Under the pieces are notes generated by a model. That model had not been told where the DNA came from and did not search any database. It was given only the letters and a program-made list of their open reading frames with translations. Of a stretch of DNA of 28,651 nt, positions 10,259 through 28,129 are shown piece after piece; position 1 is the first letter of the stretch; every line of letters starts with the position of its first letter. Source of the DNA: a virus; the IMG/VR virus record IMGVR_UViG_3300048592_000809, positions 1-28,651 of that record. The stretch is one strand, 5' to 3'. Position numbers and translations under genes: made by a program.

Positions 10259-11017
10259 CTATAAATCCTCTATCGGAGTGTTAGAAAATCCTTGAATCGG
10301 AACGCGAGCGTCCACCGACCATGGACAGTTTACTGGAATATTGCCGTTTACGCCTTGCAATTTTCCACCGAAACTTGCCCCCGAAAAGCTGGGGAATAGT
10401 TCAGTCGCGCCAGCTATAGATATAAGCCCTCCGTCACTGGCCGATGCTGTAAGAAAGGCATGTTGCCCGAAGCAAACCCCTGTGGTGATTCTGCTAGCTA
10501 CAACCAAGTTAGTTGGAAGCGAAATGCTGCACTGAGCCGCCGCTCCGCCTGTTTTGGTATATCTACCCAATACATGAATGAACTCGCCGTCTAAAGTGTA
10601 GCTAAAGTGATCGGTCACGCTGATAGTCATATTGGTGTATATTGGCGTATAGTTAATTACCGAGCCGCCCGAAAATCTTGGCTTTCCCTTAATTTCGATA
10701 AACGCACCAAAGCCAGAACCTGTAGCGTTGGCCATCAAAGATCCAACAAGCTTCCACCTTGAATAGCCAGTTGGGCCAGTAGAATTTTGATTTAAACTAA
10801 TGACTAAAGAAACCACTCCGGCGGACTGAACGGCGAACACCTGATAACGAGTGTTAGCCGTCACAGCTGGAAGAGCTACTGATAATTGAGTGGTTACTTT
10901 AAACTGTTGTCCACCAATAGTCAAGTAAACTGGACTAGAGACAGAAGCAGCCATCAAGATGTTACCAGCAGAGTGAGACAGTGTTCCAATTTTATCGTCC
11001 CGTAGTTTTTGTCCCAT
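10259..11017 (-). CDS. Tail fibre / receptor-binding protein
   Basis: This 252-residue protein is beta-rich. Its N-terminal half looks like a small sandwich with a Gly/Ala-rich middle. The C-terminal third ends in SVDARVPIQGFSNT, a pattern similar to the ends of several phage fibre proteins (a Val-Pro-Ile/Val-x-Gly-Phe/Trp-Ser motif). The N-terminal motif MGQKLRDDKIGTLSHSAGN may attach to the baseplate or the preceding fibre. It overlaps the stop of the giant fibre gene by one base. Function is inferred from context and the terminal motif. Confidence 0.55.
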   Translation of the reverse strand: MGQKLRDDKIGTLSHSAGNILMAASVSSPVYLTIGGQQFKVTTQLSVALPAVTANTRYQVFAVQSAGVVSLVISLNQNSTGPTGYSRWKLVGSLMANATGSGFGAFIEIKGKPRFSGGSVINYTPIYTNMTISVTDHFSYTLDGEFIHVLGRYTKTGGAAAQCSISLPTNLVVASRITTGVCFGQHAFLTASASDGGLISIAGATELFPSFSGASFGGKLQGVNGNIPVNCPWSVDARVPIQGFSNTPIEDL

Positions 11018-14000
11018 TAGTCAAGCTCCCTGACTGATAAAATTCTATTATTGGCAACAAGCCCTGTGGCTGCACTTACACGCCAATATACGTCTATTTT
11101 ATGATATCCTGGACTAACTTGAAGTCTATATAAAATTGTAAAACTTGCTGAAGCTACAGCTGAACCAGTATAAGCACTAGCCACTGGAGTTACCATTTTG
11201 CCATCTACATATATGAAAAATTCATTACCATTTCCAGTTGTATTATTATTATGTTGACCTGATGTTGATAATTCTATTATACTTTTAGTAGTTTTAATTG
11301 TCAAACTTAATTCTGATAATGGTACAGCTGTAGTTGAAGTAGTAGATGTATTTCCTGATATACCTACAGCATTGCCCAAAACATTAGGCTGATTTACATC
11401 TTTCTTACTGAACTTTCTAAAATCAGCTACACCTTGAGAGCCAACAGCTAAGGTGTTTTGTAATACAAATGGGCCATTGTCTTGATGAGAGTGTATTGGA
11501 GTGATAATATCTAAACATTCATTTTCAATTTTTAAATTAGCTGTTCCATTGTTAAATCTGATTGTATGCTTTCCAAGAGCTAATCCAGTTACAACAAAGC
11601 CGCAACCAGGAGTAACAGATACAGTTGCCTGTTGATCTAAAATACCAGTTGCTGAAGTAAAAGTGATACCGCCGCCATAAACAGTAGCTGCTGCTGCTTG
11701 AGATGGATAATTAGTTGTGTTAAAAGTTAATCCATCAACAGTAACAGTAATATTATTAGAAGAGTTAGTGTCACCCATAAATCTAAAATCAAAACCTGTT
11801 CCATAAAAAGTATATTCAATATAAGCATTAAGTCTATTGCTAGAAATTTCAAATCCACAAATATTGTTTGCAGGCGTTACTCCAGGAATGCTCCAATCTA
11901 CTGTTCCACCAGTACCATTTACATAAGTAAATTCTCTGGTTGCAAACTTTCTCAGCGTTCCAGTTGAAATAGTACTTATTCCAGCAGTAGAATTTGGTGC
12001 AAAGTTAGCCAAAATATTATATGCGCCAATCTCTACCGCTCCATTTGGAAGAGTAGGAGTCTTTGGCTGATAAACTATAAATTTAGTAAAATAAAAAGAT
12101 CCACTAGTATATGCAGATAATGTTAACCTTAATGTATGTGTTCCATACGGAAGACCAGAAGCTATTTTAGTATTTGCAATACCAGTAGGTGTTAAGTTAG
12201 TTATTGTAGCAGGCGTTGAACCATCAATAGAATATTGCACAGTACCCACTAAAGCTGAACCACTAGTTTCTATATCTATGCCAGTTCCAACAAAAGTAAA
12301 TGTTATAGTTTGTGGTACTACTCCAGCCCAACCTACTCCTTCTATTCCATTTAGTGAATTTATAATCGAGCTGGTGGCTATTAAAGTAGTACTTCCATCA
12401 TCTAAGGTAAAAACTGGTGTTGTAGGGGTACTTCCAAATCTACTAAAATCATCTGCTCTACCAGCTCCAAATTCTCTTGGAAAATATATTCTAGCTATTT
12501 CTTCATTTGAGTGATTAGCAGAAGCTAAATTTAGTTGAGAAGCATCTGTCGGCGTAACAGCTTTAGCTACTGAACCATCAGCTTTTTGATAAACTAAAAC
12601 TCTTCCACCACGAGTGCCAAGAGTGCCTGTTTCAAAGCCAGAATTATAAGCAGTAGTTTCTAAAATAGTATGAGTGCGCTTTTTGCCTTTATAAAGCTGA
12701 GCGCCTGGAGGTAATTGAATAAGTCCTGAAGTATTTTCATTTAGAACTTCAAAACCATAGATATTTATTCCACCAGTTACATTATCATTTCTAATTTTAA
12801 TTGTATGAATACCTAAAGTTAAACCAGACGCTACAGGTATAATATTATTAGGATTGTAATTTCTAACATTTAGAACAACACTAGCTGTTGCTCCAGGCAA
12901 TAGATTTGCTGAATCTGCTCCTCCATCAACGTTAGCTATATTTGATCTAACATCATTACCTAAAGCAGTTATAAAATTCAAGCCAGTACCATAAAAAGTT
13001 ATTTCTACGTAAGCACCTACAGTAGTTGACAGTGGCCTAACTCCTGTTGTATCACTACTATTAATCCAATTACCAACAAATCTAATTTGATTAAATTTAT
13101 CATTTACTGCGCCAAAAACCTGTTCACCATTTGGCCCAAATTCATCTTGAAGCTGGTAAATCTGCTGAGTCATAATTCGATCAACTGCAAAGCGAGGCTT
13201 TAAATCTTGGCTTAGATCAGGAATTTGTGCTCGATTTTGAATTGCAGTGTTTGGTACTACAATCTTAGGCAAAATCATTGAGTCAGAAATTGAAGCTAAC
13301 TCATCACCAATGTCAATCAAGTTAGATTGAATTTCAGAAATGGCTGCTGCGTTAGAGTCTGAATTGTCAATGACAGAAGCTTTAGTTTGTCTAAAGATAA
13401 GAACTATGTCTTCACCTGGAAAGTCAAAAGTGTCAGGCTCAAACTTAACTGTCTGGCCTTCAATACGAGCAACACCCTCTTCAATCGCATACATTTGACC
13501 ACGATAAGGGTCAAGAATATCAAGCAATTCAGGGTCTGGAGTAAACGTCAACAAAAAGTCTGTCTTATTCTCGTCGCCTGTGAAGTAGAATTTTTGGAAA
13601 CGCTTTTCACCTGTAACTGAAGTTACACCGTTAGTTAAGCCGTAGTATAATCCATAACCTTCAGCGTGAGCCAAAGCTACGCTAGAAGTTACTCGAATAA
13701 TTAAGTCATGTGCGCGACCGGAAACTACAGCCGCTTTAGTTGAAGCTGCTCCAGTCCAAACTGAACCATCAAAAGTAGCGCCATTAGTTCCTGCGCCGTT
13801 TCTCCAAGATAAGTCTAATGTGCCAGCTTTATATCCAGCATCAGTAACCAAAACTAAGTGGTATGTTCCAGCAGTCAGAACTACGTCTGGAAGATCAAAG
13901 GTAACTGTTATGTCGCCTGTTCCACCTAAAGAAGCGGCTGAAATAATTTTAGCATCAGACTCAGAAAGAATATCTGCTACTGCTGTGCTTGGTACGCCTG

Positions 14001-17000
14001 CGTTATTTTTAACTAAACGCAAAGTAACTAAGCCAGTACCTACTCCACCATAATTCAAATTCAAGTCAACAGTCTTGACTACAGAAGTAGTTGACAATGC
14101 TAATTGAGAAGAAAGTTCTTGTTGAGTAGTAGCATTAAGGGCTTGTCCAGCGCCTGAAGCTGCAACAGTTTGAAGAGCTTGGTTAGATACTTCTTCAGAG
14201 AATACATGGTACCCTCTAAAAGCATTTAAACCAATTTGCTCCATAGTCATTGTTTGCCAGTTTGTTCCACCGTCACGAGAAATCTCGTAAGTAGCAGCTG
14301 CGTCAACAAAGCCAGTTAAGTAGTTTAAATATAGTTCGGCTTCAGTAATGTCTACGCCTTCATCTAAGAAAGACTGATCTAAGACATCTTGAGAAACCAT
14401 TGTTTGGCCAATAGCAGTCCAAGCGAAAGTTCGCTTAGCTGGGCTATAAGCTCCAGTAGAAACAACGTCAATTTTGGTGGCTTTGTCGCGTCTAAAAATA
14501 TTTTGGTCCATTAACTCAAAAGAGTTAACTGCAAAACGGTCTCTCAAAAGAGTATCTAAAGAAGATGCGTCTCCTGAACCGCCGCCTGAACCTGAACCAA
14601 CTCCGAGCCTACGAGTTTGAACAACAGTGATTGTTCCAGCAATGTTTTGTACTTGGATTGCTCCAAGCTTAATGTCTCCTGTAATAACTGGTAGTGGAGC
14701 AGAAGCTTGAACAGCGTTAGCTGAATCACCAAAATCGATTTGAACTTGTGCTTCTTGGCGATTGTCAGCCAGTACGTTTCCTGGAATGAGAGATACACCG
14801 TACCAGTAATAGTGACCAACAGGAATAGTAAAAGGAGTAAAGTTAATGCCTAAAGCTGTTACGTCATCTTCTTTTAAGATAGCTCCAGTAGAGAAGTTAA
14901 TTACTGCGCCTGTAAAGCTAAGGATGAATTCACCAACAACTTGGCTAAGAATATCTTGATCTAGTTGAGTAAAGTCTGCGCCAAGAATAGTTGCTTTGCT
15001 TACGTTAGAAGCGTGTTTATGTAATTTAAGTTGAGTAAGTCTGCGATTAATTTCTGCTAAAGCTCCATCAAGCTCAAGATATTCTCCAGGCTTAATTAAG
15101 AAGCTCTTCATACCTACAGTTACGCCTGTAGACACTCTGCGAGCAATAATAACTGTATTGTCTGTAGCTACTACTGCGTCAACGTCAGCAACGTTAACTG
15201 TTAAGTTTGTTGCTACGCCTGCTGTGCGAACTAGCTCTACGTATGCTACGCTAGAAGCGTTTGGAAGCATGATAGTCTGAGCTAAAATAGTATTTCGAAC
15301 GTTAGTTAAACCAGGAATTTGAACGTATGCGTTAGCGCTAAGAGTTAACTCATAAGTGCCAGCATTATCAACTAAACTCCACGTTCCACCTTCAATAACT
15401 TTTGAAGATCGATCTTGTCTGTCAGCAGCAGCAAAAGCTCCAGCAGCTGCATCTAAATCAGAAATAGCTGTAGTTAGTGGGTCGCCATCAGTAACATAAT
15501 TGTTTGAAGCAAATTGTGGACTATTATCGGCCTCAGAAGTCGAACCAATAAACTGTAAAAGCTCTAAAGAAGTATTGTCAGAAACTTGTTGGCTTTCACC
15601 TTGCTCTAACTCGCCTGATTTAAAGCGAGTATAGATTTTTGGTACTGAGCCGCCGTTATCATCTCGGAAATAAAACCAATACATGTCAGCAGTAATTGGT
15701 GTTTCTTCTCTTAAAGCAAAGCGTAAATGTCTATCAGTTGATGGAGCACCAACAACGTTATATACGCCAAAAGCGTATTTAGCATTAATACCAGAAGGGC
15801 CAGTAGAAGCTCCAGCGTATGGAGTAGTTAAAGTAACTTGAGAAGCAGAATCTACTGAAAGAATTTCGTAATAACCTTCGTCACCTATACCGTCAATTTT
15901 AATATAGTCACCAGCGACTAAATCAACTGTCCAAGCTATTGCTCCAACAGAGTTAACTATGGCTGAACCATTAGTAAAAATAAGGGCTGGAATAACAACT
16001 TGATCACGAACTAAATTGATGTAAGCTACTTGACCATCAGCTAAAGTAACGTCTGTTCCAGCAGCATAAGCAGAAATAGTATAAGTTAAGCGACTTCCAA
16101 TAACTCTATTTCTAAGAGGAAAGTCCCAATTAAGTTTACCAGGAACTAGATCATCGTGGACTATTGTTGCGCGACCAGTAACTACTGTATTAACGCCGTC
16201 AGAACGAATACCAGAGATTGAACCTCCAGTACCTAACGAATACCAATAAATTCCACCTGTAATCTCTTGAATGATGGACATAACAGCGTCCATCCATTCT
16301 TTTTGAGATTTAATCTGTTTGTCTCCACCATGAAAAGGGTTTTGACTAGAAGTTGATGTAGGTGGGTTTTCAGTTCGGCCTTCTGGCTGATTAGTCCAAG
16401 GATAAGCGTAGCTTGGATTTGGTGCTGAAAAACCAGCAGTACCAAGTCTGAATAACATTGGTCTGCGATCAGTAATAGAAGTTACGTTGTTTGCTGCGTC
16501 CGTTTGAACAATAGCCAAAGGCAGAGTGTCAGCAGCAAAACCAGTAGTCGTGACTTTAAAAATATAAGTCATTAACTGAGCTACTGGAAGAACCTTAGAC
16601 GTTTCGATCTTATTGGTTGGATCCCATATAGCTCTTGGAGCTTGAGTAGAAGCGTCTGCTGCTCGATTAAAATCAATGCTTACATAGTTAGTAGAAGATG
16701 GAGCAAAAGAACCAATAACTTTATTATTAATAGTTGAGCTAAGAATTTCTACTGGAGTACCAGCAGCTACTTTAAAAATAGTACCAGAAACTAAACTCGT
16801 AGTATGTAAAATAGCAGAGTCAGAAACTATGACAGATAGACCATTGGCTGAGTTACCAACCGCGCCAACCATATTGAGTTCAAAGCCACGAATTACGTAA
16901 CCAAGGTTTTCACCTGTAACTAAGGCTTCGACTGCTTCATCAAAATCAGATCGAACTGCACTCTCAATAGAGCGCATGTCGCTAACATCAACTCTTAGCT

Positions 17001-17034
17001 GACTAACCCAATGACCTGAACGTCTAATTGCCAT
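11017..17034 (-). CDS. Giant multidomain tail fibre protein
   Basis: This 2005-residue protein is the first gene of the fibre operon. Its N-terminus (1-260) is probably the baseplate-attachment region. The middle has beta-module stretches, including VAGDYIKIDGIGDEGYYEI near 370-395, related to modules in the baseplate proteins encoded upstream. Three sandwich modules follow at about 1308-1431, 1515-1658 and 1691-1845, each with F/YGTG and LG.HTI or YGTHT strands. They are homologous to the 732-residue fibre encoded at 5067-7265. The last ~125 residues (about 1880-2005) form a separate jelly-roll-like tip. ATG 17034 is preceded by AGGAG and a leader shared with the other tail operon. The substrate or receptor is unknown. 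Confidence 0.75.
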   Translation of the reverse strand: MAIRRSGHWVSQLRVDVSDMRSIESAVRSDFDEAVEALVTGENLGYVIRGFELNMVGAVGNSANGLSVIVSDSAILHTTSLVSGTIFKVAAGTPVEILSSTINNKVIGSFAPSSTNYVSIDFNRAADASTQAPRAIWDPTNKIETSKVLPVAQLMTYIFKVTTTGFAADTLPLAIVQTDAANNVTSITDRRPMLFRLGTAGFSAPNPSYAYPWTNQPEGRTENPPTSTSSQNPFHGGDKQIKSQKEWMDAVMSIIQEITGGIYWYSLGTGGSISGIRSDGVNTVVTGRATIVHDDLVPGKLNWDFPLRNRVIGSRLTYTISAYAAGTDVTLADGQVAYINLVRDQVVIPALIFTNGSAIVNSVGAIAWTVDLVAGDYIKIDGIGDEGYYEILSVDSASQVTLTTPYAGASTGPSGINAKYAFGVYNVVGAPSTDRHLRFALREETPITADMYWFYFRDDNGGSVPKIYTRFKSGELEQGESQQVSDNTSLELLQFIGSTSEADNSPQFASNNYVTDGDPLTTAISDLDAAAGAFAAADRQDRSSKVIEGGTWSLVDNAGTYELTLSANAYVQIPGLTNVRNTILAQTIMLPNASSVAYVELVRTAGVATNLTVNVADVDAVVATDNTVIIARRVSTGVTVGMKSFLIKPGEYLELDGALAEINRRLTQLKLHKHASNVSKATILGADFTQLDQDILSQVVGEFILSFTGAVINFSTGAILKEDDVTALGINFTPFTIPVGHYYWYGVSLIPGNVLADNRQEAQVQIDFGDSANAVQASAPLPVITGDIKLGAIQVQNIAGTITVVQTRRLGVGSGSGGGSGDASSLDTLLRDRFAVNSFELMDQNIFRRDKATKIDVVSTGAYSPAKRTFAWTAIGQTMVSQDVLDQSFLDEGVDITEAELYLNYLTGFVDAAATYEISRDGGTNWQTMTMEQIGLNAFRGYHVFSEEVSNQALQTVAASGAGQALNATTQQELSSQLALSTTSVVKTVDLNLNYGGVGTGLVTLRLVKNNAGVPSTAVADILSESDAKIISAASLGGTGDITVTFDLPDVVLTAGTYHLVLVTDAGYKAGTLDLSWRNGAGTNGATFDGSVWTGAASTKAAVVSGRAHDLIIRVTSSVALAHAEGYGLYYGLTNGVTSVTGEKRFQKFYFTGDENKTDFLLTFTPDPELLDILDPYRGQMYAIEEGVARIEGQTVKFEPDTFDFPGEDIVLIFRQTKASVIDNSDSNAAAISEIQSNLIDIGDELASISDSMILPKIVVPNTAIQNRAQIPDLSQDLKPRFAVDRIMTQQIYQLQDEFGPNGEQVFGAVNDKFNQIRFVGNWINSSDTTGVRPLSTTVGAYVEITFYGTGLNFITALGNDVRSNIANVDGGADSANLLPGATASVVLNVRNYNPNNIIPVASGLTLGIHTIKIRNDNVTGGINIYGFEVLNENTSGLIQLPPGAQLYKGKKRTHTILETTAYNSGFETGTLGTRGGRVLVYQKADGSVAKAVTPTDASQLNLASANHSNEEIARIYFPREFGAGRADDFSRFGSTPTTPVFTLDDGSTTLIATSSIINSLNGIEGVGWAGVVPQTITFTFVGTGIDIETSGSALVGTVQYSIDGSTPATITNLTPTGIANTKIASGLPYGTHTLRLTLSAYTSGSFYFTKFIVYQPKTPTLPNGAVEIGAYNILANFAPNSTAGISTISTGTLRKFATREFTYVNGTGGTVDWSIPGVTPANNICGFEISSNRLNAYIEYTFYGTGFDFRFMGDTNSSNNITVTVDGLTFNTTNYPSQAAAATVYGGGITFTSATGILDQQATVSVTPGCGFVVTGLALGKHTIRFNNGTANLKIENECLDIITPIHSHQDNGPFVLQNTLAVGSQGVADFRKFSKKDVNQPNVLGNAVGISGNTSTTSTTAVPLSELSLTIKTTKSIIELSTSGQHNNNTTGNGNEFFIYVDGKMVTPVASAYTGSAVASASFTILYRLQVSPGYHKIDVYWRVSAATGLVANNRILSVRELD

Positions 17035-17040
17035 TACTTA

Positions 17041-17094
17041 CTCCTGAATCCATATTTAAAAGATTTGGTCTTGGCAGATTTCTTTATATCGTGT
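17041..17094 (-). promoter_or_regulatory. Putative late promoter and ribosome binding site of the fibre operon
   Basis: On the minus strand this leader reads ACACGATAT (17094-17086), about ten bases to GCCA, five bases to AAATCTTT (17066-17059), then an AT-rich box TTTAAATAT and AGGAG before ATG 17034. The same ordered elements precede the baseplate operon at 28136-28185, with 19 and 18 bases between the first box and AAATCTTT. Two copies in front of two tail operons suggest a phage-specific promoter. Which box is the core element is not known. Confidence 0.55.
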
Positions 17095-17120
17095 TAATTC
17101 ATATATTTATTTTTAAAATT

Positions 17121-17141
17121 TTTTACCCTATTTTGGTAAAA
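17121..17141. repeat. Inverted repeat in the divergent intergenic region
   Basis: TTTTACC at 17121-17127 is repeated as its reverse complement GGTAAAA at 17135-17141, separated by seven bases. It lies between the divergent starts at 17034 and 17170. A short palindrome here could be an operator for a repressor or activator, or an RNA hairpin. It is not followed by a clear T run, so a terminator is unlikely. Confidence 0.35.
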
Positions 17142-17169
17142 TCGATATATACTAAAAGTAGGAGGTTTT

Positions 17170-17430
17170 ATGAAAAAACTAGCAATTTTACTATTTCTTG
17201 TATCTTTTCAAGCATTTGGATATAATACGGATAAGGTTGACATTGATATTATTCAAGCTGAAAAAGGTAAGGTGTTTGGTAAACAAACTATGATAGTTTA
17301 TTATGGAAAATGCCAAAGTGAAAGAACTTTTGAATGGGCTGAAATGCAAGCTTACAATGAAGGTAAGCCTAGTACTATTAAAGACTGGGTTTTTGAGTCT
17401 ATTGATCAAATGAGCGAAAAATGCGACTAA
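17170..17430 (+). CDS. Small secreted protein
   Basis: This 86-residue protein starts with a clear Sec-type signal peptide (MKKLAILLFLVSFQAFG, then YNTDK), with a likely cleavage site after residue 17. The mature part is ~69 residues, mostly polar, with two cysteines (in YGKCQSER and SEKCD) that could form a disulphide in the periplasm or outside the cell. An excellent AGGAGG lies 4-5 bases before the ATG. It is the first gene of the plus-strand island. Its function is unknown. Secreted phage proteins of this size sometimes act in superinfection exclusion or lysis, but nothing in the sequence shows that here. Confidence 0.65.
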   Translation: MKKLAILLFLVSFQAFGYNTDKVDIDIIQAEKGKVFGKQTMIVYYGKCQSERTFEWAEMQAYNEGKPSTIKDWVFESIDQMSEKCD

Positions 17431-17624
17431 AAGTAGGCGATTTAATAGAGCACGATGGCATAAGAGGCCATGTTCAGTCTATAGTTAATAAAGAAGCTAT
17501 AGTTTGGACAAGAAATGGTCACTTACAAATCTTTAATATATACGGCAAGTACGTTAGGACGCATACAAAGCGAGGCATTTCTGGGAAAGTCAGGCAGAAT
17601 AAACAAGGGCGACAAGGAATATGA
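17421..17624 (+). CDS. Small beta-rich protein, paralogue of the product at 17987
   Basis: This 67-residue protein has residues 1-50 that align with the protein encoded at 17987-18235: M(R/K)LKxGD, then D, Q(S/T)I, V, GxLxxxNxY and V fall at matching places. The pattern suggests a small beta-barrel of SH3 or KOW type, which is inference. It starts inside the end of the preceding gene (ATGCGACTAA, 10 bases overlap). Its 3' third overlaps the start of the next frame by 110 bases. The overlapped tail, GISGKVRQNKQGRQGI, is basic and outside the conserved core. Function unknown. Confidence 0.6.
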   Translation: MRLKVGDLIEHDGIRGHVQSIVNKEAIVWTRNGHLQIFNIYGKYVRTHTKRGISGKVRQNKQGRQGI

Positions 17625-17997
17625 TGAATTACAAAGGGCTAGGCATGAAAACCAAAGGCTTAAGAAAGAAATCAGCGCTCTTAGAAAGCAATTAGCTAGA
17701 ATAGATTTTACTCGTTTTCAGAATTTAAGAGAATTAGTAAATAAGCAGCAAAAAGAAGAAGTACAAGAGCGTAAAGAGCAAAGCCTTGAAAAGCTTAAGA
17801 AAAAATGGATGTGTCGAGAATGTGGAAAAGACTATTTACGATTAATGATATACGAGCATCCGATAAAAGGTATATGTTACTATAGAAAATGTGTCACTCC
17901 AATGTGTGGGCACAGAACTGCTATGAAACCCTATACTCCAGAAGTAACTGGTATTACTGAGTCTGGAGAAGTAAAGGATGGAAAAGATGAAACTTAA
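17515..17997 (+). CDS. Coiled-coil zinc-ribbon protein
   Basis: This 160-residue protein has a long charged helical region (34-98) with heptad character, rich in Lys, Glu and Arg. It is followed by a zinc-ribbon-like domain with CREC (Cys100, Cys103) and later Cys126 and Cys131 in KCVTPMCGHRT. It may bind nucleic acid or a partner protein. The only ordinary start in this frame is ATG 17515, which overlaps the preceding gene by 110 bases in another frame. The recognisable part begins around residue 32, so a non-standard start nearer 17600 is possible. Neighbouring genes on both sides are paralogues of each other. No family is recognised. Confidence 0.6.
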   Translation: MVTYKSLIYTASTLGRIQSEAFLGKSGRINKGDKEYDELQRARHENQRLKKEISALRKQLARIDFTRFQNLRELVNKQQKEEVQERKEQSLEKLKKKWMCRECGKDYLRLMIYEHPIKGICYYRKCVTPMCGHRTAMKPYTPEVTGITESGEVKDGKDET

Positions 17998-18235
17998 GCA
18001 AGGTGACCCATTAGTAGTAGATAATAAGATGTATTACTTTCAGACTATTCTTCAGGATGGCTCAGTAGTCATGCTTTCTGAAGATGGGAAGCTCCATTCA
18101 GCCAATATGTATACTGTACAAGTAGTCAAAAGAGACCAAAAAGAAAATATCCTTAGAGAGTTTGTTGGCTACGCCGCCGAAAATCAGGTTGCTCCAACAG
18201 ACTTAGTTAATTTAGCCTTGAAAGAGTTGCAGTGA
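17987..18235 (+). CDS. Small beta-rich protein, paralogue of the product at 17421
   Basis: This protein (82 residues from ATG 17987; 85 from ATG 17978) has an N-terminal half, MKLKQGDPLVVDNKMYYFQT onward, that aligns with the product at 17421 through LK-GD, D, QTI, V, GKL and N-Y. I prefer the 17987 start because it matches the paralogue's first residue and AAGGA lies eight bases upstream. The C-terminal half is helical (LREFVGYAAENQVAPTDLVN). It overlaps the preceding gene's end. Its TGA stop overlaps the next gene's GTG start. Function unknown. Confidence 0.6.
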   Translation: MKLKQGDPLVVDNKMYYFQTILQDGSVVMLSEDGKLHSANMYTVQVVKRDQKENILREFVGYAAENQVAPTDLVNLALKELQ

Positions 18236-19572
18236 ACAAAAAGTATATTTTTGTATACAAAACCACAAATTTAAAATCTAATAGGTTTTATATTGGTGTT
18301 CACGAAACTAATAATTTAGAGGACGGTTATTTAGGTAGTGGCGTTATTCTTGAAAGGGCAATTAAAAAGCATGGAAAAGAAAACTTTAAAAGAGAAATTT
18401 TAAGCTTTTTTAATACAAAAGAAGAAGCTTATAAACATGAAGCTCTTTTAATTACTCCTGAACTTGTTAAAAGTGGCGACTGTTACAATATAGCCCTTGG
18501 TGGAGCAGGCGGATATACCATTGCAGGCTATTCTGAAGAAGAAAAAATAATTCATGAACGAAAAAGAAATAAGGCCTTTAAAGATAGTGGGGCAAATCAA
18601 GGCACTAGAAATTTCATGTATGGAAAAAGCCCAAAAGAAGTTTATTCTCCAGAAGTTTATGAGCAATGGAGATTAAAAAATATAGAAAATAAAAAAGGTG
18701 AATTAAATGGTATGTATGGCATCGCACCTTGGCTTCATCCATCTGTTAATGAAAGAACCCAAAATATTTGGTCAAACGCTGATGTGCTTTATAATATTTG
18801 GAAAAATAATAAAGTTAAAGGACATAAATTAGCATCATTAAATAATGATGAATATAATTCTTGTTACAGTAGAATTGCAGCTAAATTTTTTGAAGATTGG
18901 ATACCACAAAACGACAGTGAATGGATTAATTTTAAAAGAAAAATAGAAGGCAAAATTCCAATCTTTTTTACTTCCGATCTTCATTTATTTCACGAAAATG
19001 TAATTAAATATAGTAATCGGCCCTTTAAAAATTGTGAAGAAATGCATGAATCTCTCATAAAAAGATGGAACGCTACAGTTCCCAGTTACGGAATAGTTTA
19101 TGTACTTGGAGATGTTGGGTTTGCTAAAGGTGATTTAATTAAATCAGTGCTTTCTAGAATGAATGGTACTAAAATTTTAATTTTAGGAAATCACGATGGC
19201 TCAGTAGGAAAAATGTACGATTCTGGATTTACTTTAGTATTAAATGGAACAACATTATATTTAGGCAATCATAGATTAGAACTAACACATTGTCCACCCA
19301 GAGGTGTGTGGAGAGAAAATACTGCTGGTATGCGCGGTAGTGATGGTACAGAAAATTGGCATGGCGAAAGACGACATCATAAATTTTCTAAGCAGTATGA
19401 CCCCAATAGTTTTTGGCTGCATGGCCACACTCACAAAAAACCAACAGAAAGAACCTTAAACAGAATGTTTGATGTTGGTATAGATGCTAATCATTATACA
19501 CCTGTTAGTATGGGCACTATAGAATCTTGGATAGCTTTGATGTCTAAATCTAACGGTCAGAAGCCTGAATAG
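18232..19572 (+). CDS. GIY-YIG endonuclease fused to a metallophosphoesterase
   Basis: This 446-residue protein has two unrelated parts in one frame. Residues 1-90 are a GIY-YIG nuclease domain: YIFVYKTTN, then FYIG (19-22), DGYLGSG (31-37), KHGKENFKREIL, and Glu70 as the probable metal-binding acid. Residues 118-165 carry two NUMOD3-like DNA-binding repeats (NFMYGK and GELNGMYG). Residues 241-446 are a complete calcineurin-like phosphoesterase: SDLH (Asp249, His251), GD (294), GNHD (319-322), THC (His353) and GHTH (398-401). All ligand positions are present, so both enzymes look active. The start is GTG 18232, overlapping the preceding TGA. No ordinary internal start lies just before the phosphoesterase. 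The 3' end overlaps a minus-strand gene by 23 bases. Confidence 0.85.
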   Translation: MNKKYIFVYKTTNLKSNRFYIGVHETNNLEDGYLGSGVILERAIKKHGKENFKREILSFFNTKEEAYKHEALLITPELVKSGDCYNIALGGAGGYTIAGYSEEEKIIHERKRNKAFKDSGANQGTRNFMYGKSPKEVYSPEVYEQWRLKNIENKKGELNGMYGIAPWLHPSVNERTQNIWSNADVLYNIWKNNKVKGHKLASLNNDEYNSCYSRIAAKFFEDWIPQNDSEWINFKRKIEGKIPIFFTSDLHLFHENVIKYSNRPFKNCEEMHESLIKRWNATVPSYGIVYVLGDVGFAKGDLIKSVLSRMNGTKILILGNHDGSVGKMYDSGFTLVLNGTTLYLGNHRLELTHCPPRGVWRENTAGMRGSDGTENWHGERRHHKFSKQYDPNSFWLHGHTHKKPTERTLNRMFDVGIDANHYTPVSMGTIESWIALMSKSNGQKPE

Positions 19573-19969
19573 CTACTATACCTTTAAAAGAGAAGCTTAA
19601 TTTCCATGTCCCCTTTGTAGCGACTTGGTTCTGCTCATTAGTGATTTTTGCTTGCTGAATAAAGAGAATATCTTCTCCAGTAGACCTATCTCTAATGCGT
19701 ATAGATACATAAGTGCCTGATAAAGGACTGTCAGCCCTAGGTCTCAAACCAAGAGCCACTAAGCCGCCTGAGTTTCTCACTCTGAGGCCAGAAATTGAGC
19801 CGCTAACCGAGCCCCTGACAGGAGAAATCTCTTGAGGATAAAAAGCATCTACGCCGTAAATCTCGGCGTCTTGGCTGTCAATAGTGTATGACACAGACTG
19901 GGCTGGGCCATACAATTTGTTGTTTAGGTAAATAAAGATGTCTGCGCCTCTTAAAACAGAATTAGCCAT
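19550..19969 (-). CDS. Tail-tube-like structural protein
   Basis: This 139-residue, beta-rich protein starts MANSVLRGADIFIYLNNKLY and contains GSVSGSISGLRVRNSGGLVA followed by SIRIRDRSTGEDILFIQQAK and a final strand WKLSFSFKGIVA. This strand order and length resemble tail-tube-fold proteins, including tube subunits, baseplate hub rings and terminators of contractile phages. It is the third gene of the baseplate operon, which supports an internal tail or baseplate ring. I cannot decide between tube and baseplate ring. Its 3' end overlaps the phosphoesterase fusion gene by 23 bases on the opposite strand. Confidence 0.55.
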   Translation of the reverse strand: MANSVLRGADIFIYLNNKLYGPAQSVSYTIDSQDAEIYGVDAFYPQEISPVRGSVSGSISGLRVRNSGGLVALGLRPRADSPLSGTYVSIRIRDRSTGEDILFIQQAKITNEQNQVATKGTWKLSFSFKGIVAIQASDR

Positions 19970-21583
19970 TTACACGCCCCAAACTTGTGTTTTTTCAGAA
20001 CCAGCTGTTCCAAAAGAACCAAGGCCTTCATCGTTAGGATACAAAATATAAATGATTACGTTTATTCCTGTAGCTGCTACTTCATTAATTAAGCTTTCAG
20101 CATATAACCGACCACTAACTGTGTCAGTTATATACATAGGATAATCTAAACCAATTTTGCTTGGTTGAAAAGGAAAATTATTGCCTACTAGAGCAATATC
20201 TGTTCCAACATCGTGAGAATTTTTAAATCTGTAGCTTGGACTAATTTGAATGGTATTTGTTGAAGGAACCGCTATGTAAGGTACTGGGCCTTCTTCTTTA
20301 GCTGTTCCAAAACCTACAACTAAAAACCCTTGGCTATCTGGAAAAGGCGTGCTATTATCAACAAAAATTAAACTTTCTGTTGAGCCATCTATAGGCTGAG
20401 TGTTTAAACAACTATCTTTAGTTATAGTATACCCTTTAGTTATGTCCCACACATAAAAGCCGCCGTCTTCTGCTGGATTTCCTAAAGGCAAAGCGTCTTC
20501 TTTTAAATGCGCTGCGCCTTCAGCATTTCTTCGAACAACCCTAGTCACTGCTGGCATGTATACTTCTAATGTACCGCTTTTTGTTTGATAAGCAGCAGCA
20601 TAATTTAAATTGCTGTTAAGAGTAAATCTAGTTGGTTCAAAAAACAATACGTTATCTGTAGCGCCTTGAAGAACCACTTCAGATACACCTAAAGGGTTTA
20701 AAAACTCTACATAAGCAGCGCCAACTAATCCACCAACAGCTTTAGTAATAGTAAATGTTCCACGATTGTTTGTATTAAAACCTGAACCAGTAATTACTGC
20801 ATAGTCCCCTGTTTTAATTTTACCAGTTGATGGGTTGCTTCCAGCGGTCCACGTTGCTCGAATAACTCCACCATTGCCTAACGAGAGAGTCCATTGAGTA
20901 GAAGCGTCACCAGTGGTCGGTCGAATAGAAGGAAATTTTAAATAGCGCTGAGCGCGTCCACCTTTAACTCTTACTGTAGAAGATGGGCCAGTGGTTGGAG
21001 AAAAAATAACTACGTAATTTCCTGCTCCATCGTTTCTTGGGTTAGCTGAACCAGCTATACCTTTCTTTTTTAATTCTCGAACTATAGCATCAGAAACTTC
21101 TTGAGCTGTAGCTGCTGAAATATTTACAAACTGTGAAGAATCAAAGTTTATAGATATAGTAGTTCCATCATCCAGCTGCATTATTAAATCATCACCATTA
21201 TTTAAAGCATAAGGTTCTAACTCAGTAGAAGCTACGCTTCCACGAGTATACTCTACTCCGTAAATAACTTCTAATATACCGTTAATTAAATCTCTAACTT
21301 GTTTTCTATTTGTAACTGCTATACCTAATTCTCTAAAAACTTCATCATCTAGACCAACCAATCCTGGTCGAATAAAATCTCTGTCTGCCAATCTCTGATC
21401 AAGATAGCGACCTTCAGCAGTAACAATATACATAGAATCATTGACTGCTTGAACATTTTTAATAAGATGAGCGCCTGGTTGAGCTAACCCTTCAAGAACA
21501 GCATCGACATTTTTACCAGTAATTTCTTTATTAAGAAATTTTCTAAGTAATTTTTTTGCTTCATCTTTTGGATCTTGGCTCAT
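19970..21583 (-). CDS. Baseplate protein sharing modules with the giant baseplate J-like protein
   Basis: This 537-residue protein follows the giant baseplate gene after three bases. The first ~125 residues are helical and may bind the baseplate. At 130-220 is a module with DGTTISINFD and ATAQEVSDAIV that resembles modules inside the neighbouring protein. At about 226-304 is a second module with KTGDYAVITGSGFNTNNRGTF that matches several repeats there. The C-terminal part (about 380-537) is beta-rich without recognised motifs. It is likely a peripheral baseplate or wedge component. GGGAG lies before ATG 21583. Confidence 0.6.
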   Translation of the reverse strand: MSQDPKDEAKKLLRKFLNKEITGKNVDAVLEGLAQPGAHLIKNVQAVNDSMYIVTAEGRYLDQRLADRDFIRPGLVGLDDEVFRELGIAVTNRKQVRDLINGILEVIYGVEYTRGSVASTELEPYALNNGDDLIMQLDDGTTISINFDSSQFVNISAATAQEVSDAIVRELKKKGIAGSANPRNDGAGNYVVIFSPTTGPSSTVRVKGGRAQRYLKFPSIRPTTGDASTQWTLSLGNGGVIRATWTAGSNPSTGKIKTGDYAVITGSGFNTNNRGTFTITKAVGGLVGAAYVEFLNPLGVSEVVLQGATDNVLFFEPTRFTLNSNLNYAAAYQTKSGTLEVYMPAVTRVVRRNAEGAAHLKEDALPLGNPAEDGGFYVWDITKGYTITKDSCLNTQPIDGSTESLIFVDNSTPFPDSQGFLVVGFGTAKEEGPVPYIAVPSTNTIQISPSYRFKNSHDVGTDIALVGNNFPFQPSKIGLDYPMYITDTVSGRLYAESLINEVAATGINVIIYILYPNDEGLGSFGTAGSEKTQVWGV

Positions 21584-21586
21584 TTA

Positions 21587-24500
21587 TTAGCTCCCAATTT
21601 GGCTTACGCTAATATCTGTTGCTGGGTCAATAACCAAGCTCTTTTCGCTAGGCTGAATAACTATAACGTCATTGGCTGAGTTGTACAATGGGCTACTAAT
21701 AGCTACGGCTCTAACGCCTGGAATAGCATCAACAGTAGCTACTATTTCGCTTATAGCTATAGATTGGCCAATAGGGTTAGAATTAATTAAAGCAGCTACA
21801 GCTGAACGTACTTGTTCAGTAATTTGAACAAAAGGTACACCTGTATTTACTCGTACATCAATACCAATAAGAACTCTACGCACTAAAGGTGGATCAATAA
21901 AAATTTCTGCTCCAGCAGCAGCTACACCTGGATAAGTTACTGAATCTCGTGGATCACCATAAGTGATTCTGTTTGTTTCAGCAAGCATACCAATATCATA
22001 GCGGTAACTATCTAAACCACTCTTAGCTATTACTGGATAAGAAAGTTTATTTAGAGTAGATACTGTGACTGCTCCGCTATTGTTAATTTTGTCTGCTTGT
22101 TCAGCAGTATCAAAAATCAAAACTAATTGTTCATCATTAGATGGCTCAACGGCTACTTGACGAATTACTTTATAGCCATAATACTTTTGGCCTTCTTCTA
22201 AGAACATAGCATTTTCATTTGCTCCTAGAAGAGCAAAATCAAACAAGTTTAAAGAAGTATCTATAACAACAGTTTCTCTGTCTAAAACTTCAGAAATTAA
22301 ATGTGTGCCTTGATTATTTGTTCCAAGGAAATTACCATTTATTCTTACTTTATCTCCAGCAGTAGCGCTATCATAGTCATAAAATAAAATAGTTGGCCTG
22401 TCAACTGTAACTGTTACAGGAGTAACGTTTGAAGCTGTTACTGAATTAGCATTAGCATATTCAACAAAAGTATTTTGACCTGATTGATAAACTGATATAG
22501 AGAATCCTATACCCATGTTTCCATTGGCTGCTGAAGCTACAGGACCAAAAGAAGCGTCTGTAATTCTTACTTTAGTTCCATTTACAGTAGCAACAAAGTC
22601 ACCTAAAGCATCAATAGCTAATTGAGTAGCCAGAACGTTTTGAGCCGCCGTATCTGTAGCACCAACAGCTACAGGTATAGCTGTGCGTCCAACAATCAGT
22701 GGGTCTCCACCGCCGCCTGCTTTATTATACCACACGTAGTACAGTGAACCATCAGCAGCGTCAAGCAACCAATAATCTCCAGTAGTGATATCTTGGCTTC
22801 TAATTATAGTAACATCTGTAATTTGTTTACGTTTCTCTTGAGCGCCTAAAACTTTAAATGTACCATTATTTGAACCAGCTCCAGCAATAGTTAAATCATC
22901 ACCTTGCTTAATTAAATTTAAACTAGGCTCAGTGCCAACTTGGTTCCAATACATTCTGGTATATTCTGATTTAACAAAATTATATTCAGTAGTTCCATCT
23001 CCAAGAGTAGCTATATTGTTTGCTGGTAAAGCAATTTCTTCATCAACAGCCCTATCATTTTCAATATAAAAACTGTCATTAAAAGTTCTGATTAGTTTAA
23101 AAGTGCCTTGGTTTAATACATTAAATGGAGATTTTACAATAACAGAGTCGCCTTCTTTTAAACTTAAAGCTGAAGACATTGTGCCTCCACCAATAGTTTC
23201 ACCAACAAAGTCAGTTATTGTAGCTCCAGATGTTCCACCGTCAGTATAAGTTAAAGTATAAATACTTCCATCTGATTCTCTAGTAATAGTTACTAAAGTT
23301 CCAACTGCTGAAGCGCTATAACCAGCTACAGCTGAAATAGCTGCTGCTAAATTAGTAGCTGTAATGGCTTCTGAGCCGCCAACAACAAACTCTACACCTT
23401 CAGTAAGAATTGTACTAGTTATTCCATTAGACAGTGTAAAAGAGTCACCAGCTAAGTTAGCATTGCTAGTTATATTAATTGTAGCTGTAAAATCATTAGA
23501 CTTACCTAAAGAGTTCAACACTCGAATAGTTTTTGAATCAACGCTTTTTCCAGTAACTAAAAAGTCACCGTTATTGCCATAATAAGCAAAGCCAGCAAAA
23601 GTAATTCTGTCTCCAATATTTACTTCTTGAAAGTTTGCTGCTCCACCAACAATTTTATAATCTGTATTATCTGAGCCAAAAACTCTGATTATAGACATAG
23701 AGGTACTAGCTATAGAACCAAAAGAGGCATTTTTATATAGCAATGGGCTAGAACCAACTCCAGTCCAAGATACACAAACTAGTTTTCCTTGTTTTTCAAC
23801 TTTCCATGTTCTAGAGTTGATTAAAGAAACTAGTCTAGGGCTACCGAAAAGTCTTTGATCAATTTGTCTATTGCTAATTTGTATAACGCTTTTTCCAGCG
23901 CTTGGATAATTTGGAATTACTCTAGCTGTAGTTAAAGCACTTATACCTGTATTCTTTTCTTGGAAATTTTCAGCAGCCAGTCTGAGCAATTGTCCACTAA
24001 TAAATGGTGTACCTTGACTAGCTGAAATATTTGTATGAGTATAAAAATCGTTTACAACATAAGAACTAGAAATTACGTCTGCTTCTAACGAAGAGGCTGA
24101 TCCACCAGCCACTTGCACAGAACCATCTGAGCCTAAAACTGAAGTCGAAACTTGTAAGTGTCTTTCTCTACGAGAAGCATTTACTGTACCTAGAGTTGAG
24201 ATACCACTAACAGCCAATACATTTACCAATTCAGCAATATGTTTAGCTGTAGTTGGAATTAAACGAATTTCTTCTCCACTGTTGATAGCGTAACCAGTAC
24301 CTGTTGGATAAGTTAAAGTTCGTTTCCAAACAAACTGTGGTGAAGCACCTAAAGAAGTAGTAGCTATCCAATTTAAACCGTCTCTTAAATATTCACCAAC
24401 AGAAATTTGGTTTGTAGCATCTGCTGTAGAAAGAGAAATAATACCTGAGCCTGTTAGGCCTCCATCATTTACTATAGTAGAAGTAATCCAACTAGTTAAG

Positions 24501-27500
24501 TTAGCATTTACATAAGTATTTATTTCAGCAGCTGTAGTGTCATCTTTATCAAAGAAAATAACTGTATTAGGTATTAAGCTTGCTACATCATTTTGAGCAA
24601 AAGCTGAACCGTTTTTACGTGCTACAGTGAAGCTTGTAGCTGTGGGCAAAAATCCACCTAAAGTACTAACTCTATAAGTGCCTGTATTACGTAAATCAAA
24701 CTCAGAATCTTTTCCAATAGTAACATATTCTCCACCAGAAAGAGCGCCTAAAGCAGGAGCAGTACCAGTGCCAGACCATGTATAAGTAACTTGATCAACT
24801 CCAGCTACAGGAGTGTTAGCGGTAATAGTTACGTTCCATTCAGTAGTTCCATCTGCTGAAGTTACTATTGCTGAACCGCTTTTTAAGCTAATTCTAATAT
24901 TAGCGTCTTTGTCTACTACTACTGTATGACTAATGCCTTGATTTGGTTGTGTAGGATAAATATAACCTACATTATAACGTTCTCCGCTTTTACCCCAAAC
25001 GGCTGCTCTAAAAAGCAAAGCGTCTTGAGCTGCTGCTGGGTCTAAAACAAATTTAGCTTTCATTAAAGCTTTATAATTGTCAAATTTAAAGCCTGAACCA
25101 AAAGCTGAAGAAAAAGCGGCTGTTGGACCACTGTCAGAATCATAAGCATTAAAGCTAGTAGAGTTAGCAGCTATAGTAGAATTTGTTGTTGCTTTTCTAT
25201 ACATAGGTACAGTAAAAGTTCTTTCGCTTGGATTTTGATCTAATACAACAACCATATTATCTTGATAACCAAAATCGAAGGGGTAAGCCAAGAAATAGCG
25301 ATCATCATTACGTATTCTTTTAAAGAAAACGCTATTTTCTAAAGTAACCGCTGTGCCAACCATATCAGACAATTGAACAACTTGTTCTTTTGCTGCTTGA
25401 GCATCATCTATATTTCCGTATGGGTGTAAAGGTCTAACAATAAGGTTAGGGTCATATCCAAGAGCTTCTAAATCATCTGTGCTAGTCAAAGTAGGCAAGA
25501 AAGAATCGGAAGGATTTGCTGTTGCTTCAGAAGCAAAAGAAGAATGAGCAAAAGCAGGATATTCACCTAATGAAGCTGAACTCTCATAACTAGCTGTATG
25601 ATTTACTTTAGTATAATCTGATTGACCAGCATTGAAAGAAATCGCTGTTGCCTCTTCTTCAAGAGTAACAATAAGCAAAGCGCCTTTATTTTCTTCAAGA
25701 GATTTTGTAGTTAAAACAAAACGCAAATCCTCTTCTATAGAAAGCTCAGCGCCAACTATTTGTTCATTTAAAAGAGTAGCCAAAGTGTTTATGTTATAAT
25801 TTCCTGCTGTAATTTTAATTCTTTGAGGAACTTCGGTTGTTCTAACAACAATAAATCCATCTAATATAGGAATGTTTACTTCAACAGAAGCAGCAGCATA
25901 TTCAGCGGCGGTAACGGCAATGTCAAGAGTAGTAGCTGTTTTGGCGTGTACTCGGCCTTCTATTCTATTATTTGTAAGTAACTCTTTGCACCAATTAATT
26001 ACATAATCGCCTACTTGAACATCATCAAAGGCTGTAACTATATTAGAAGTATAGCGCACTATATTAGCTACTGGTTTAGAAACAGAAAGTTCTGTACCAG
26101 ACACTGCGCCTGTAGGAATAAGAGAAGCAGCAATATCATCAACTAAAATCCAAAAATTTCCATCGGTAGCAAAACTAACTGTGGCTCCAACAATGTCATC
26201 TGAAAAAAGTCGAGCAGCTGAAAAATTACTTCCAGCAGTTAATGAGTCGCCTGGGTCAAGAGGCTTAGTTAATTTAATTTGTCCAGTGTTTCTGCTAAAT
26301 TCAAAATCAGATTCTAAACCAGTAGCATTTAAACCTAAAGCAGCCGTAAACATTCCTTTAGAAACTAAAGTAGAGGCTAATGAAATTGAAATCATTGCTC
26401 GATTGCTTACGCCAATATTTGACGTAAGTCGAATAGATTGGCCTTCAACAGAAGCTGTTAAACCAGTAAGCTTAGCATTCATTACTGCAACCCAAGAAGC
26501 TAAATCATTATTAGGGCTCACAGTTGGAAAGGCAGTATTATCAATAAAATCTTGATTAGTAAAAGTAAAAGTTATTGGAGCAGTATTGTCAATTTCAATT
26601 ATAAGAGTGTCTCCTGAAGCAATTGAAGGAGACCAATCAGATTGTTGAGCGCTAATTACAAAAGCTTCTCGACCATTTTTAGATAAAGGTAAACTATTTC
26701 TATATAAACGAAGAGTTTGAACTTCATTTGCTGGGAAGCCTAAATTTTCAGAAGCGTTTGTTCCAATAGTCGGTTCTACGGCTTGTATATCTTCATTAAT
26801 TTCTTCTTTAGCAGAAATTGTTACTCGCGTACCATTATCTGCTGTAGCTGCTGAAAAATTTAAAGCATAATTACTATTAATTGAAGCAACAATCTCATAA
26901 GCGCTAGCTGCGCCTGGAGCTTGAAAGTCTGAAGCATCAAAAGTATGTTCAGATAAATCACCGCCAACTTTAACAGCTAGCTTTTCTCCACCATAGATAA
27001 CAAAAGGTTGAATATTTGCAGTTTCTAAATAAGCTTTTGCTACGCCTGTTTGTCTTCCACCAGTAGCTAATTGAAAACTGTTTTCTCCACCAAGGGCTGA
27101 GTCAACAATAAACTCTAAGCCTACGCCTTCAGTTTTTCTTTCATAACCTGTGCCATCGTTTACATATAAACGAGTGAGTCCACCAGTAGTTATAATTTCG
27201 TTAGAAGTAACAGAAGAAGCTTCATCAAAAGCTGTTGCGCCTAATACTGCGTTTTTAACTGCTAATGCGCTACCTAGTCCACGAGTAAGTTTTGCTCTTT
27301 TAATACGAGCGCGTAGTTCATCATCGGTTTCTTCATCTTGACCATTTTTGAATGGGCCAGGATTGGTTACTGAAGCGCCTGGAAAGGGTTCAACAGTGAA
27401 TTCTTTAATAGCTAATCTAGGTACATTTCCTGATGTACCAACTTGTTGAGCAGTAACTCGTACTCCTTCAACTACATTTTCTCCATCAAGCAGAATGGCT

Positions 27501-28129
27501 GTTTCACTGGTAGCAAAAGAAATATCTTCTGCTCCACCAGCTGAAGGGGCTTTAACTAGAGTGCTTCCTGGAATGGTTCTATTTCCACCTTGAGCTAAAA
27601 TAACCGATTCACTCACATTATGAAACTTAACTGTAGGAGCAACAAGGGTAATTTCAAAATATCCACCGACTGGATTAATAGCACTATAAGCTATAGGGCC
27701 TTCGATGTTTGGCGTATTTCTACCTACATAGATAGAGCCAGTACCAGGCCAACCAGTAGTGTTGCTAACTTTTAATATTGTTGAGCCAATATTTGGTGCT
27801 GGAGCTCCAGCATAGATTTTAGTAGCTAATTTTTCAAAACTAGTATCAGTAACAGTAACTACATCAGAAGCTGGAGTGGCTGATCTAAGCTTTACACCCT
27901 CTTCGATAGCTAGATTTTTAAGCAAGTCGCCTGAAGCTCTATCAATAGAAAGGTCTTTAAGAATCTGAAGGACAGAAGCTGTAGCCCTATAAGTCATTTG
28001 AGCATTAGCAGAAAATAAACTTACAGTAGTAGAGTTAGGATTTAAATCATTTACGCCAATTTTGGCCATAAAAGCCGCTAATGCTTCACCTAACAGCTGA
28101 TCATAACTTTTAACTTCCGGTTTCGCCAA
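21587..28129 (-). CDS. Giant baseplate J-like protein with long modular insert
   Basis: This 2180-residue protein has the J-type baseplate wedge signature (P2 gpJ / T4 gp6 related). At the N-terminus are LKDLSIDRASGDLLKNLAI, then GVRVTAQQVGTSGNVPRLAI, GASVTNPGPFKNG and DEETDDELRARIKRAKLTRG (about 263-282). The C-terminal ~130 residues (from ~2050; RVLIGIDVRVNTG, then IVATVDAIPGVRAVAISSP) match the usual J C-terminus. J proteins are normally 350-480 residues; here about 1650 residues of repeated beta modules lie between the two parts. The start is TTG 28129: an in-frame TGA directly precedes it, and AGGAG lies six bases upstream. It is the first gene behind the conserved leader. Confidence 0.85.
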   Translation of the reverse strand: MAKPEVKSYDQLLGEALAAFMAKIGVNDLNPNSTTVSLFSANAQMTYRATASVLQILKDLSIDRASGDLLKNLAIEEGVKLRSATPASDVVTVTDTSFEKLATKIYAGAPAPNIGSTILKVSNTTGWPGTGSIYVGRNTPNIEGPIAYSAINPVGGYFEITLVAPTVKFHNVSESVILAQGGNRTIPGSTLVKAPSAGGAEDISFATSETAILLDGENVVEGVRVTAQQVGTSGNVPRLAIKEFTVEPFPGASVTNPGPFKNGQDEETDDELRARIKRAKLTRGLGSALAVKNAVLGATAFDEASSVTSNEIITTGGLTRLYVNDGTGYERKTEGVGLEFIVDSALGGENSFQLATGGRQTGVAKAYLETANIQPFVIYGGEKLAVKVGGDLSEHTFDASDFQAPGAASAYEIVASINSNYALNFSAATADNGTRVTISAKEEINEDIQAVEPTIGTNASENLGFPANEVQTLRLYRNSLPLSKNGREAFVISAQQSDWSPSIASGDTLIIEIDNTAPITFTFTNQDFIDNTAFPTVSPNNDLASWVAVMNAKLTGLTASVEGQSIRLTSNIGVSNRAMISISLASTLVSKGMFTAALGLNATGLESDFEFSRNTGQIKLTKPLDPGDSLTAGSNFSAARLFSDDIVGATVSFATDGNFWILVDDIAASLIPTGAVSGTELSVSKPVANIVRYTSNIVTAFDDVQVGDYVINWCKELLTNNRIEGRVHAKTATTLDIAVTAAEYAAASVEVNIPILDGFIVVRTTEVPQRIKITAGNYNINTLATLLNEQIVGAELSIEEDLRFVLTTKSLEENKGALLIVTLEEEATAISFNAGQSDYTKVNHTASYESSASLGEYPAFAHSSFASEATANPSDSFLPTLTSTDDLEALGYDPNLIVRPLHPYGNIDDAQAAKEQVVQLSDMVGTAVTLENSVFFKRIRNDDRYFLAYPFDFGYQDNMVVVLDQNPSERTFTVPMYRKATTNSTIAANSTSFNAYDSDSGPTAAFSSAFGSGFKFDNYKALMKAKFVLDPAAAQDALLFRAAVWGKSGERYNVGYIYPTQPNQGISHTVVVDKDANIRISLKSGSAIVTSADGTTEWNVTITANTPVAGVDQVTYTWSGTGTAPALGALSGGEYVTIGKDSEFDLRNTGTYRVSTLGGFLPTATSFTVARKNGSAFAQNDVASLIPNTVIFFDKDDTTAAEINTYVNANLTSWITSTIVNDGGLTGSGIISLSTADATNQISVGEYLRDGLNWIATTSLGASPQFVWKRTLTYPTGTGYAINSGEEIRLIPTTAKHIAELVNVLAVSGISTLGTVNASRRERHLQVSTSVLGSDGSVQVAGGSASSLEADVISSSYVVNDFYTHTNISASQGTPFISGQLLRLAAENFQEKNTGISALTTARVIPNYPSAGKSVIQISNRQIDQRLFGSPRLVSLINSRTWKVEKQGKLVCVSWTGVGSSPLLYKNASFGSIASTSMSIIRVFGSDNTDYKIVGGAANFQEVNIGDRITFAGFAYYGNNGDFLVTGKSVDSKTIRVLNSLGKSNDFTATINITSNANLAGDSFTLSNGITSTILTEGVEFVVGGSEAITATNLAAAISAVAGYSASAVGTLVTITRESDGSIYTLTYTDGGTSGATITDFVGETIGGGTMSSALSLKEGDSVIVKSPFNVLNQGTFKLIRTFNDSFYIENDRAVDEEIALPANNIATLGDGTTEYNFVKSEYTRMYWNQVGTEPSLNLIKQGDDLTIAGAGSNNGTFKVLGAQEKRKQITDVTIIRSQDITTGDYWLLDAADGSLYYVWYNKAGGGGDPLIVGRTAIPVAVGATDTAAQNVLATQLAIDALGDFVATVNGTKVRITDASFGPVASAANGNMGIGFSISVYQSGQNTFVEYANANSVTASNVTPVTVTVDRPTILFYDYDSATAGDKVRINGNFLGTNNQGTHLISEVLDRETVVIDTSLNLFDFALLGANENAMFLEEGQKYYGYKVIRQVAVEPSNDEQLVLIFDTAEQADKINNSGAVTVSTLNKLSYPVIAKSGLDSYRYDIGMLAETNRITYGDPRDSVTYPGVAAAGAEIFIDPPLVRRVLIGIDVRVNTGVPFVQITEQVRSAVAALINSNPIGQSIAISEIVATVDAIPGVRAVAISSPLYNSANDVIVIQPSEKSLVIDPATDISVSQIGS

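Follow-up and report, generated by a model that had tools for sequence, protein, structure and literature searches.

This study focused on an open reading frame (ORF) in a viral sequence of 28,651 bases, which is an entire IMG/VR virus record and is referred to here as the window. The ORF joins a GIY-YIG homing endonuclease to a calcineurin-like metallophosphoesterase. A homing gene has been inserted ahead of the phosphoesterase gene, as seen from the occupied site in the window and the empty site in a related contig, L003 (IMGVR 3300031772_003777); both parts are complete, and they are read as a single open frame. The explanation that we favor, with a probability of about 0.7, is that the two genes became fused through the loss of a stop/start overlap, giving two independent enzymes on one chain, and that the fusion is incidental and tolerated. 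The fusion is also present in a second, longer contig, L002 (IMGVR 3300048839_001124; 58,385 bases). The features of the locus are as follows.

17978-18235, plus strand: small phage gene (85 aa), the TGA stop of which overlaps the GTG of the fusion ORF (GTGA, 18232-18235); it also precedes the free phosphoesterase in L003
18232-19572, plus strand: fusion ORF (446 aa), an open frame with a GTG start and a stop at 19570-19572; identical in L002
18232-18516, plus strand: GIY-YIG nuclease domain of SegE type, residues 1-95 (PF19835/PF01541), with conserved residues kept, model pLDDT 92-98 and an I-TevI-like fold
18559-18948, plus strand: C-terminal nuclease module, residues 110-239 (NUMOD3-like motifs, DNA-binding region; phrog_314, phrog_26163, phrog_25551), alignable with the free-standing ST2 and Maynard nucleases up to their last residues
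18946-18957, plus strand: junction E239-G240-K241-I242, without an ATG, GTG or TTG start
18949-19569, plus strand: metallophosphoesterase, residues 240-446, complete apart from its start codon (phrog_547, PF00149; relatives L003 and L015-L028; model pLDDT 92)
19550-19969, minus strand: virion structural gene, the 3' end of which overlaps the end of the phosphoesterase; a flank marker common to L003 (85%) and L024 (40%)

Nuclease and phosphoesterase parts in one open frame

The nuclease and phosphoesterase parts are separated by no stop codon, and families of both kinds matched the one ORF. Residues 2-239 matched a homing endonuclease family (phrog_314, 1.8e-38) and residues 235-434 a phosphoesterase family (phrog_547, 8.3e-40) in PHROGs, while Pfam returned SegE_GIY-YIG (PF19835, 5.6e-7) and Metallophos (PF00149, 8.7e-7); a chance match was dismissed because both Pfam matches exceed their cut-offs. 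An earlier, sequence-only reading of this DNA had described a one-frame join with its junction (KIEG/KIPIFF) near residue 240 and catalytic residues retained on both sides. The family matches bear out the join, alignments to nuclease and phosphoesterase relatives place the junction where it had been put, and the residues are indeed there, as set out below.

In the nuclease part, all 16 columns that are conserved in at least 95% of 87 relatives are intact (Y9, Y20, G22, H24, T26, D31, Y33, G35, S36, G37, G48, E70, N86, G90, G91 and G93), among them the tyrosine pair, glutamate and asparagine that mark a GIY-YIG domain (Y9, Y20, E70, N86). The model of this domain (pLDDT 92-98) was closest to the catalytic domain of I-TevI (1mk0, 1ln0). 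A counterpart of the basic residue Arg27 of I-TevI was not identified in the fusion nuclease, the candidates being the invariant His24 and the near-invariant Lys46. Further along, residues 152-234 matched a family of homing-endonuclease C-termini (phrog_26163, 1.4e-9). The same reading had also proposed NUMOD3-like repeats: two such motifs (NFMYGK and NGMYG) can be seen by eye, but Pfam NUMOD3 gave no match to the fusion protein at E≤1. The GC content of the nuclease part is 0.30, compared with 0.36-0.44 in the flanking genes.

The phosphoesterase part keeps 44 of the 48 columns that are invariant in 10 relatives, and every metal-ligand motif of the calcineurin-like enzymes (D-x-H, GD, GNHD, H and GHxH) is present, as D249/H251, G293-D294, G319-N320-H321-D322, H353 and G398-H399-x-H401. 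Four changed residues is the upper end of the set; the other members lose between none and four, so there is no clear decay in the window copy. The model of the whole protein was confident for residues 1-90 only (mean pLDDT 59), and the phosphoesterase was modeled on its own (mean pLDDT 92). Its closest structural match was the small, stand-alone protein aq_1665 (1xm7, E 5.6e-12), followed by LpxH and YfcE. A DNA-end nuclease of Mre11/SbcD type was considered and rejected, the structural matches, which ranked behind these three, being too distant (E 4e-3 to 1e-2, TM about 0.4). No second phosphoesterase that could make the fused one dispensable was found in the 58-kb L002 contig, which is possibly incomplete.

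Two related phosphoesterases also carry additional N-terminal sequence. One, in an archaeal MAG contig (JAGVOV010000096.1; L153:661-1911), is preceded by a 2'-5' RNA ligase domain (2H phosphoesterase, PF13563), a pairing which hints that some of the family may act on RNA ends. A second (L152:3104-4651) has an extension of about 290 aa that is nucleotidyltransferase-like by eye, with no Pfam match in that region.

The insertion site and a proposed origin of the joint

Gene order in L003 is the same as in the window, with protein identities of 83-85% for the virion genes on one side of the fusion and for the gene at 17515-17997 on the other. At the syntenic site, L003 carries a free-standing phosphoesterase of 214 aa and no nuclease; the gene starts nine bases past the stop of the same upstream gene, at a Met six residues ahead of the FFTSD motif. 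In the more distant L024 (flanking proteins 40-48%), the phosphoesterase is likewise free-standing at the same place, and the other close relatives (L015-L028, 43-52% identical) are all unfused, with starts, where these are on the contig, a few residues ahead of the motif matching PIFFTSD. The check proposed earlier, whether homologues of residues 241-446 begin near residue 241 without a nuclease, thus has a positive answer; similarly, the suggestion that a mobile gene had taken over the phosphoesterase start is supported by the lone phosphoesterase behind the same upstream gene in L003. The nuclease is a present/absent polymorphism, known from a single occupied allele and a single close empty one. 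Other modes of residence were searched for and rejected: an intein, as there was no intein/Hint family match and no host sequence ahead of the nuclease, and a group I intron, as a search of 17500-20000 against Rfam gave no intron at E values up to 1.

Free-standing relatives of the nuclease indicate where it ends. Salmonella phage ST2 and Klebsiella phage Menlow carry 241-aa nucleases with the same C-terminal module, the ends of which align to residue 239 or 237 of the window protein; that of ST2 finishes with DLDWIIFKRKQE and a stop codon, while the window reads DSEWINFKRKIE and then continues with GK. Since the free-standing relatives end at the same point, the window nuclease is complete to its last residue. 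In both ST2 and Menlow, the nuclease stop overlaps the start of an exonuclease gene by four bases (ATGA), and the nuclease start overlaps the preceding gene. The same module is found behind HNH-like heads in DSL-LC02, with a 20-base overlap into nrdB, and in Maynard, with an 11-base overlap with the next gene. Present with GIY-YIG heads in ST2 and Menlow and with HNH-like heads in DSL-LC02 and Maynard, the module has clearly been exchanged between different classes of nuclease (L161, L162, L163, L164).

The most plausible history begins with a SegE-type GIY-YIG homing gene inserting between the small phage gene and the calcineurin-like phosphoesterase gene, in an island of the tail region. The ancestral nuclease stop codon would have overlapped the start of the next gene, as judged from the arrangement at other loci in other phages. 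Because stops and starts overlap by a few bases in the relatives, a small indel could fuse such ORFs, and one at this overlap may have erased both the stop and the start, joining the frames.

The phosphoesterase of the window is only 49% identical to that of L003, and the small upstream gene 52%, vs 83-85% in the outer flanks. In the small gene (17978-18235), it is the first half that diverges from L003, while the last ~28 residues are conserved (ILREFVxYAAENxVAPTxLVNxALKEL). The phosphoesterase tree placed the window outside the set containing L003 (support 98/83), and a clade of the window and L003 was not rejected (AU p 0.19 and 0.10). At fourfold sites, identity in the flanks falls to only about 52%, which puts the window phage and L003 already far apart in silent positions. 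The local divergence and the placement in the tree are suggestive of co-conversion, in which the resident phosphoesterase allele would have been replaced during homing, but the unrejected clade and the distance at silent positions weaken that reading. Co-conversion during homing is known in T-even phages (PMC2988022), host alleles are replaced in this way by the WHO elements of yeast (PMC7282813), and phage nuclease genes occur at boundaries of genetic exchange (PMC10448857).

Nucleases were also seen near phosphoesterases elsewhere. Streptomyces phage Gilson has an HNH endonuclease gene directly upstream of its phosphoesterase, overlapping the start of the latter by one base (L014:788-1201); the related Emma1919 has no annotated nuclease at the corresponding place, and L024 has an HNH-like ORF near its phosphoesterase. 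The idea that the phosphoesterase is a recurrent homing target was not retained, as only single homing-nuclease family matches were found among 87 neighboring ORFs, and no enrichment is claimed.

Probable expression and significance of the fusion

The GTG start of the fusion ORF overlaps the stop of the upstream gene, which suggests that translation from this GTG is coupled to the upstream stop codon. Homing genes of T4 commonly overlap the gene upstream, coupling has been proposed for several of them, and mobA starts with GUG (PMC2988022). The earlier claim that no ordinary start lies just ahead of the phosphoesterase is correct: there is no in-frame ATG, GTG or TTG between residues 185 and 271, the last start before the junction being a GTG at residue 185, and the next ATG, at residue 271, lying beyond the D-x-H motif. 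Given this gap, an intact phosphoesterase can arise only as a portion of a longer protein, by initiation at a rare non-canonical codon (ATT242 or ATC244), or by proteolysis, and one polypeptide probably carries both predicted activities. The nuclease would still cut allelic sites in co-infecting phages, copying itself together with the attached phosphoesterase, and the phosphoesterase would retain its normal role in the phage. The nuclease would be expressed 1:1 with the phosphoesterase, and any mutation that breaks the nuclease frame would come at a cost to the phosphoesterase.

This last consequence raises the question of whether the arrangement is of benefit to the nuclease. In the absence of selection, homing genes are expected to decay once they have become fixed. 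A nuclease that holds the start of a needed gene, together with a cleavage-resistant allele of it, would be protected from such loss, as an ordinary frameshift or nonsense mutation in the nuclease would also disable the needed gene. We regard such an adaptive lock-in as unlikely in the present case, but if true it would represent a new escape for homing genes from the usual cycle of fixation and decay. More generally, an in-frame nuclease upstream of a phage enzyme would be shielded from the commonest inactivating mutations, which offers a testable path from parasite to resident domain. The occupied and empty pair of the window and L003, along with the unfused relatives in ST2 and Menlow, define the steps and provide a concrete test system.

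That the phosphoesterase is effectively a separate protein, released by a protease or initiated internally at ATT242 or ATC244, seems rather unlikely. SD-like AAGG sequences do lie 4 and 10 bases ahead of these two codons, respectively, and proteolysis removes the nuclease-exon fusions of fungi (PMC7487136), but there is no ordinary start in the region, initiation at ATG 271 would drop the D-x-H motif, and non-canonical starts are generally very weak.

It is quite improbable that the protein is a composite enzyme under selection, either one in which the nuclease makes cuts and the phosphoesterase acts on ends or nucleotides, or one in which the phosphoesterase is brought to DNA by the nuclease module, a co-option like that of Odn. 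Catalytic residues are kept in both parts, fusions of related phosphoesterases with other enzymes of nucleic acids exist, such as that with the RNA ligase domain in L153, and there is precedent for a chimeric phage nuclease that has taken on a new role (PMC8263062). Against this, the fold of the phosphoesterase is not Mre11-like, its close relatives work without a nuclease partner, and the two parts did not occur together in any of 50,697 phage records (2,060 match part of the fusion, and none covers 80% of it). Nor was a widespread fusion family found in the phage records or among 80 nuclease loci; the matches listed for the C-terminal module (60 of 96 records) included no fusion, nearly all being annotated as nuclease or hypothetical protein. 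As the fusion was found in one phage type only, selection for the combination is unsupported. The sequence-only reading had raised the prospect of a new DNA-end enzyme that cuts and then trims, and with aq_1665 as the nearest structure, Mre11/SbcD far down the list and a single phage type, that proposal is not upheld.

It is very improbable that the nuclease is dead weight, having lost homing and persisting just as an N-terminal extension on a working phosphoesterase. Homing genes do usually decay after fixation, with frequent frameshifts and deletions (PMC10448857), and the fused nuclease is known as a single allele, the window and L002 being identical; however, all 16 of its highly conserved residues are intact, and it is absent from L003 and is therefore no old, fixed relic. 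Finally, an assembly chimera or sequencing error that brought two separate ORFs together can be set aside as extremely improbable: the contigs are metagenome-derived, with one sequence type known, and a one-base joint error could be common to both assemblies if reads were shared, but L002 is 100% identical to the window over the 16 kb compared (11515-27583), which likewise makes unlikely the frameshift that had been named as a possible refutation, and both flanks are syntenic with L003. L002 may share a sample with the window or come from a related one, and counts as a second assembly rather than as proof from an independent source.

Comparison with known systems

The searches made of the open-access literature found no earlier description of a complete phage enzyme with a homing endonuclease joined in front of it. 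The closest relatives of the nuclease are T4 SegE and other free-standing seg GIY-YIG endonucleases (PF19835, phrog_314), with which it shares ~40% identity over residues 2-175, the same invariant residues, a place between phage genes, and patchy presence. The seg genes own a stop codon, whereas the fusion ORF runs on for 207 residues into the next gene. The nucleases of the Ackermannviridae (ST2, Menlow) resemble it in length, in a C-terminal module ending W-I-x-F-K-R-K, and in start/stop overlaps with their neighbors, which are uvsY and an exonuclease gene, but their four-base overlap is in another frame and there is no fusion. The free-standing phrog_547 phosphoesterases (L003, L015-L028, and gp221 of Streptomyces phage Annadreamy) are matched by the fused enzyme at 44 of 48 invariant residues, and those of L003 and L024 are syntenic, but each begins at a start codon of its own and lacks an N-terminal nuclease.

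A chimeric nuclease of the GIY-YIG superfamily, Odn from Vibrio phage ICP1, is similar in that a homing-type domain is joined to an unrelated domain in a phage protein; in Odn, the second domain binds DNA and redirects the nuclease, whereas the partner in the fusion is a second enzyme (PMC8263062). Like the fused nuclease, the WHO elements of yeast adjoin a host gene with an unusually divergent allele, but they are separate ORFs downstream of FBA1 for which cleavage and resistance have been demonstrated (PMC7282813). In fungal mitochondrial introns, GIY-YIG ORFs are fused to the upstream exon, so that the nuclease is in frame with host coding sequence and has expression signals in common with it; these ORFs are intronic and lie downstream of the host segment, whereas the fusion nuclease lies upstream and no intron was found (PMC7487136).

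For annotation, the present example is a warning that a phage gene labeled 'homing endonuclease' or 'phosphoesterase' may contain two genes. Elsewhere in the window, a class I/II aminotransferase-like gene (PF00155, 7e-14) was found at 1142-2128, and two very large minus-strand proteins of 2005 and 2180 aa (11017-17034 and 21587-28129) lie in the tail/virion region, adjoined by a 537-aa protein that is distantly related to one of Myxococcus phage Mx1 (36%).
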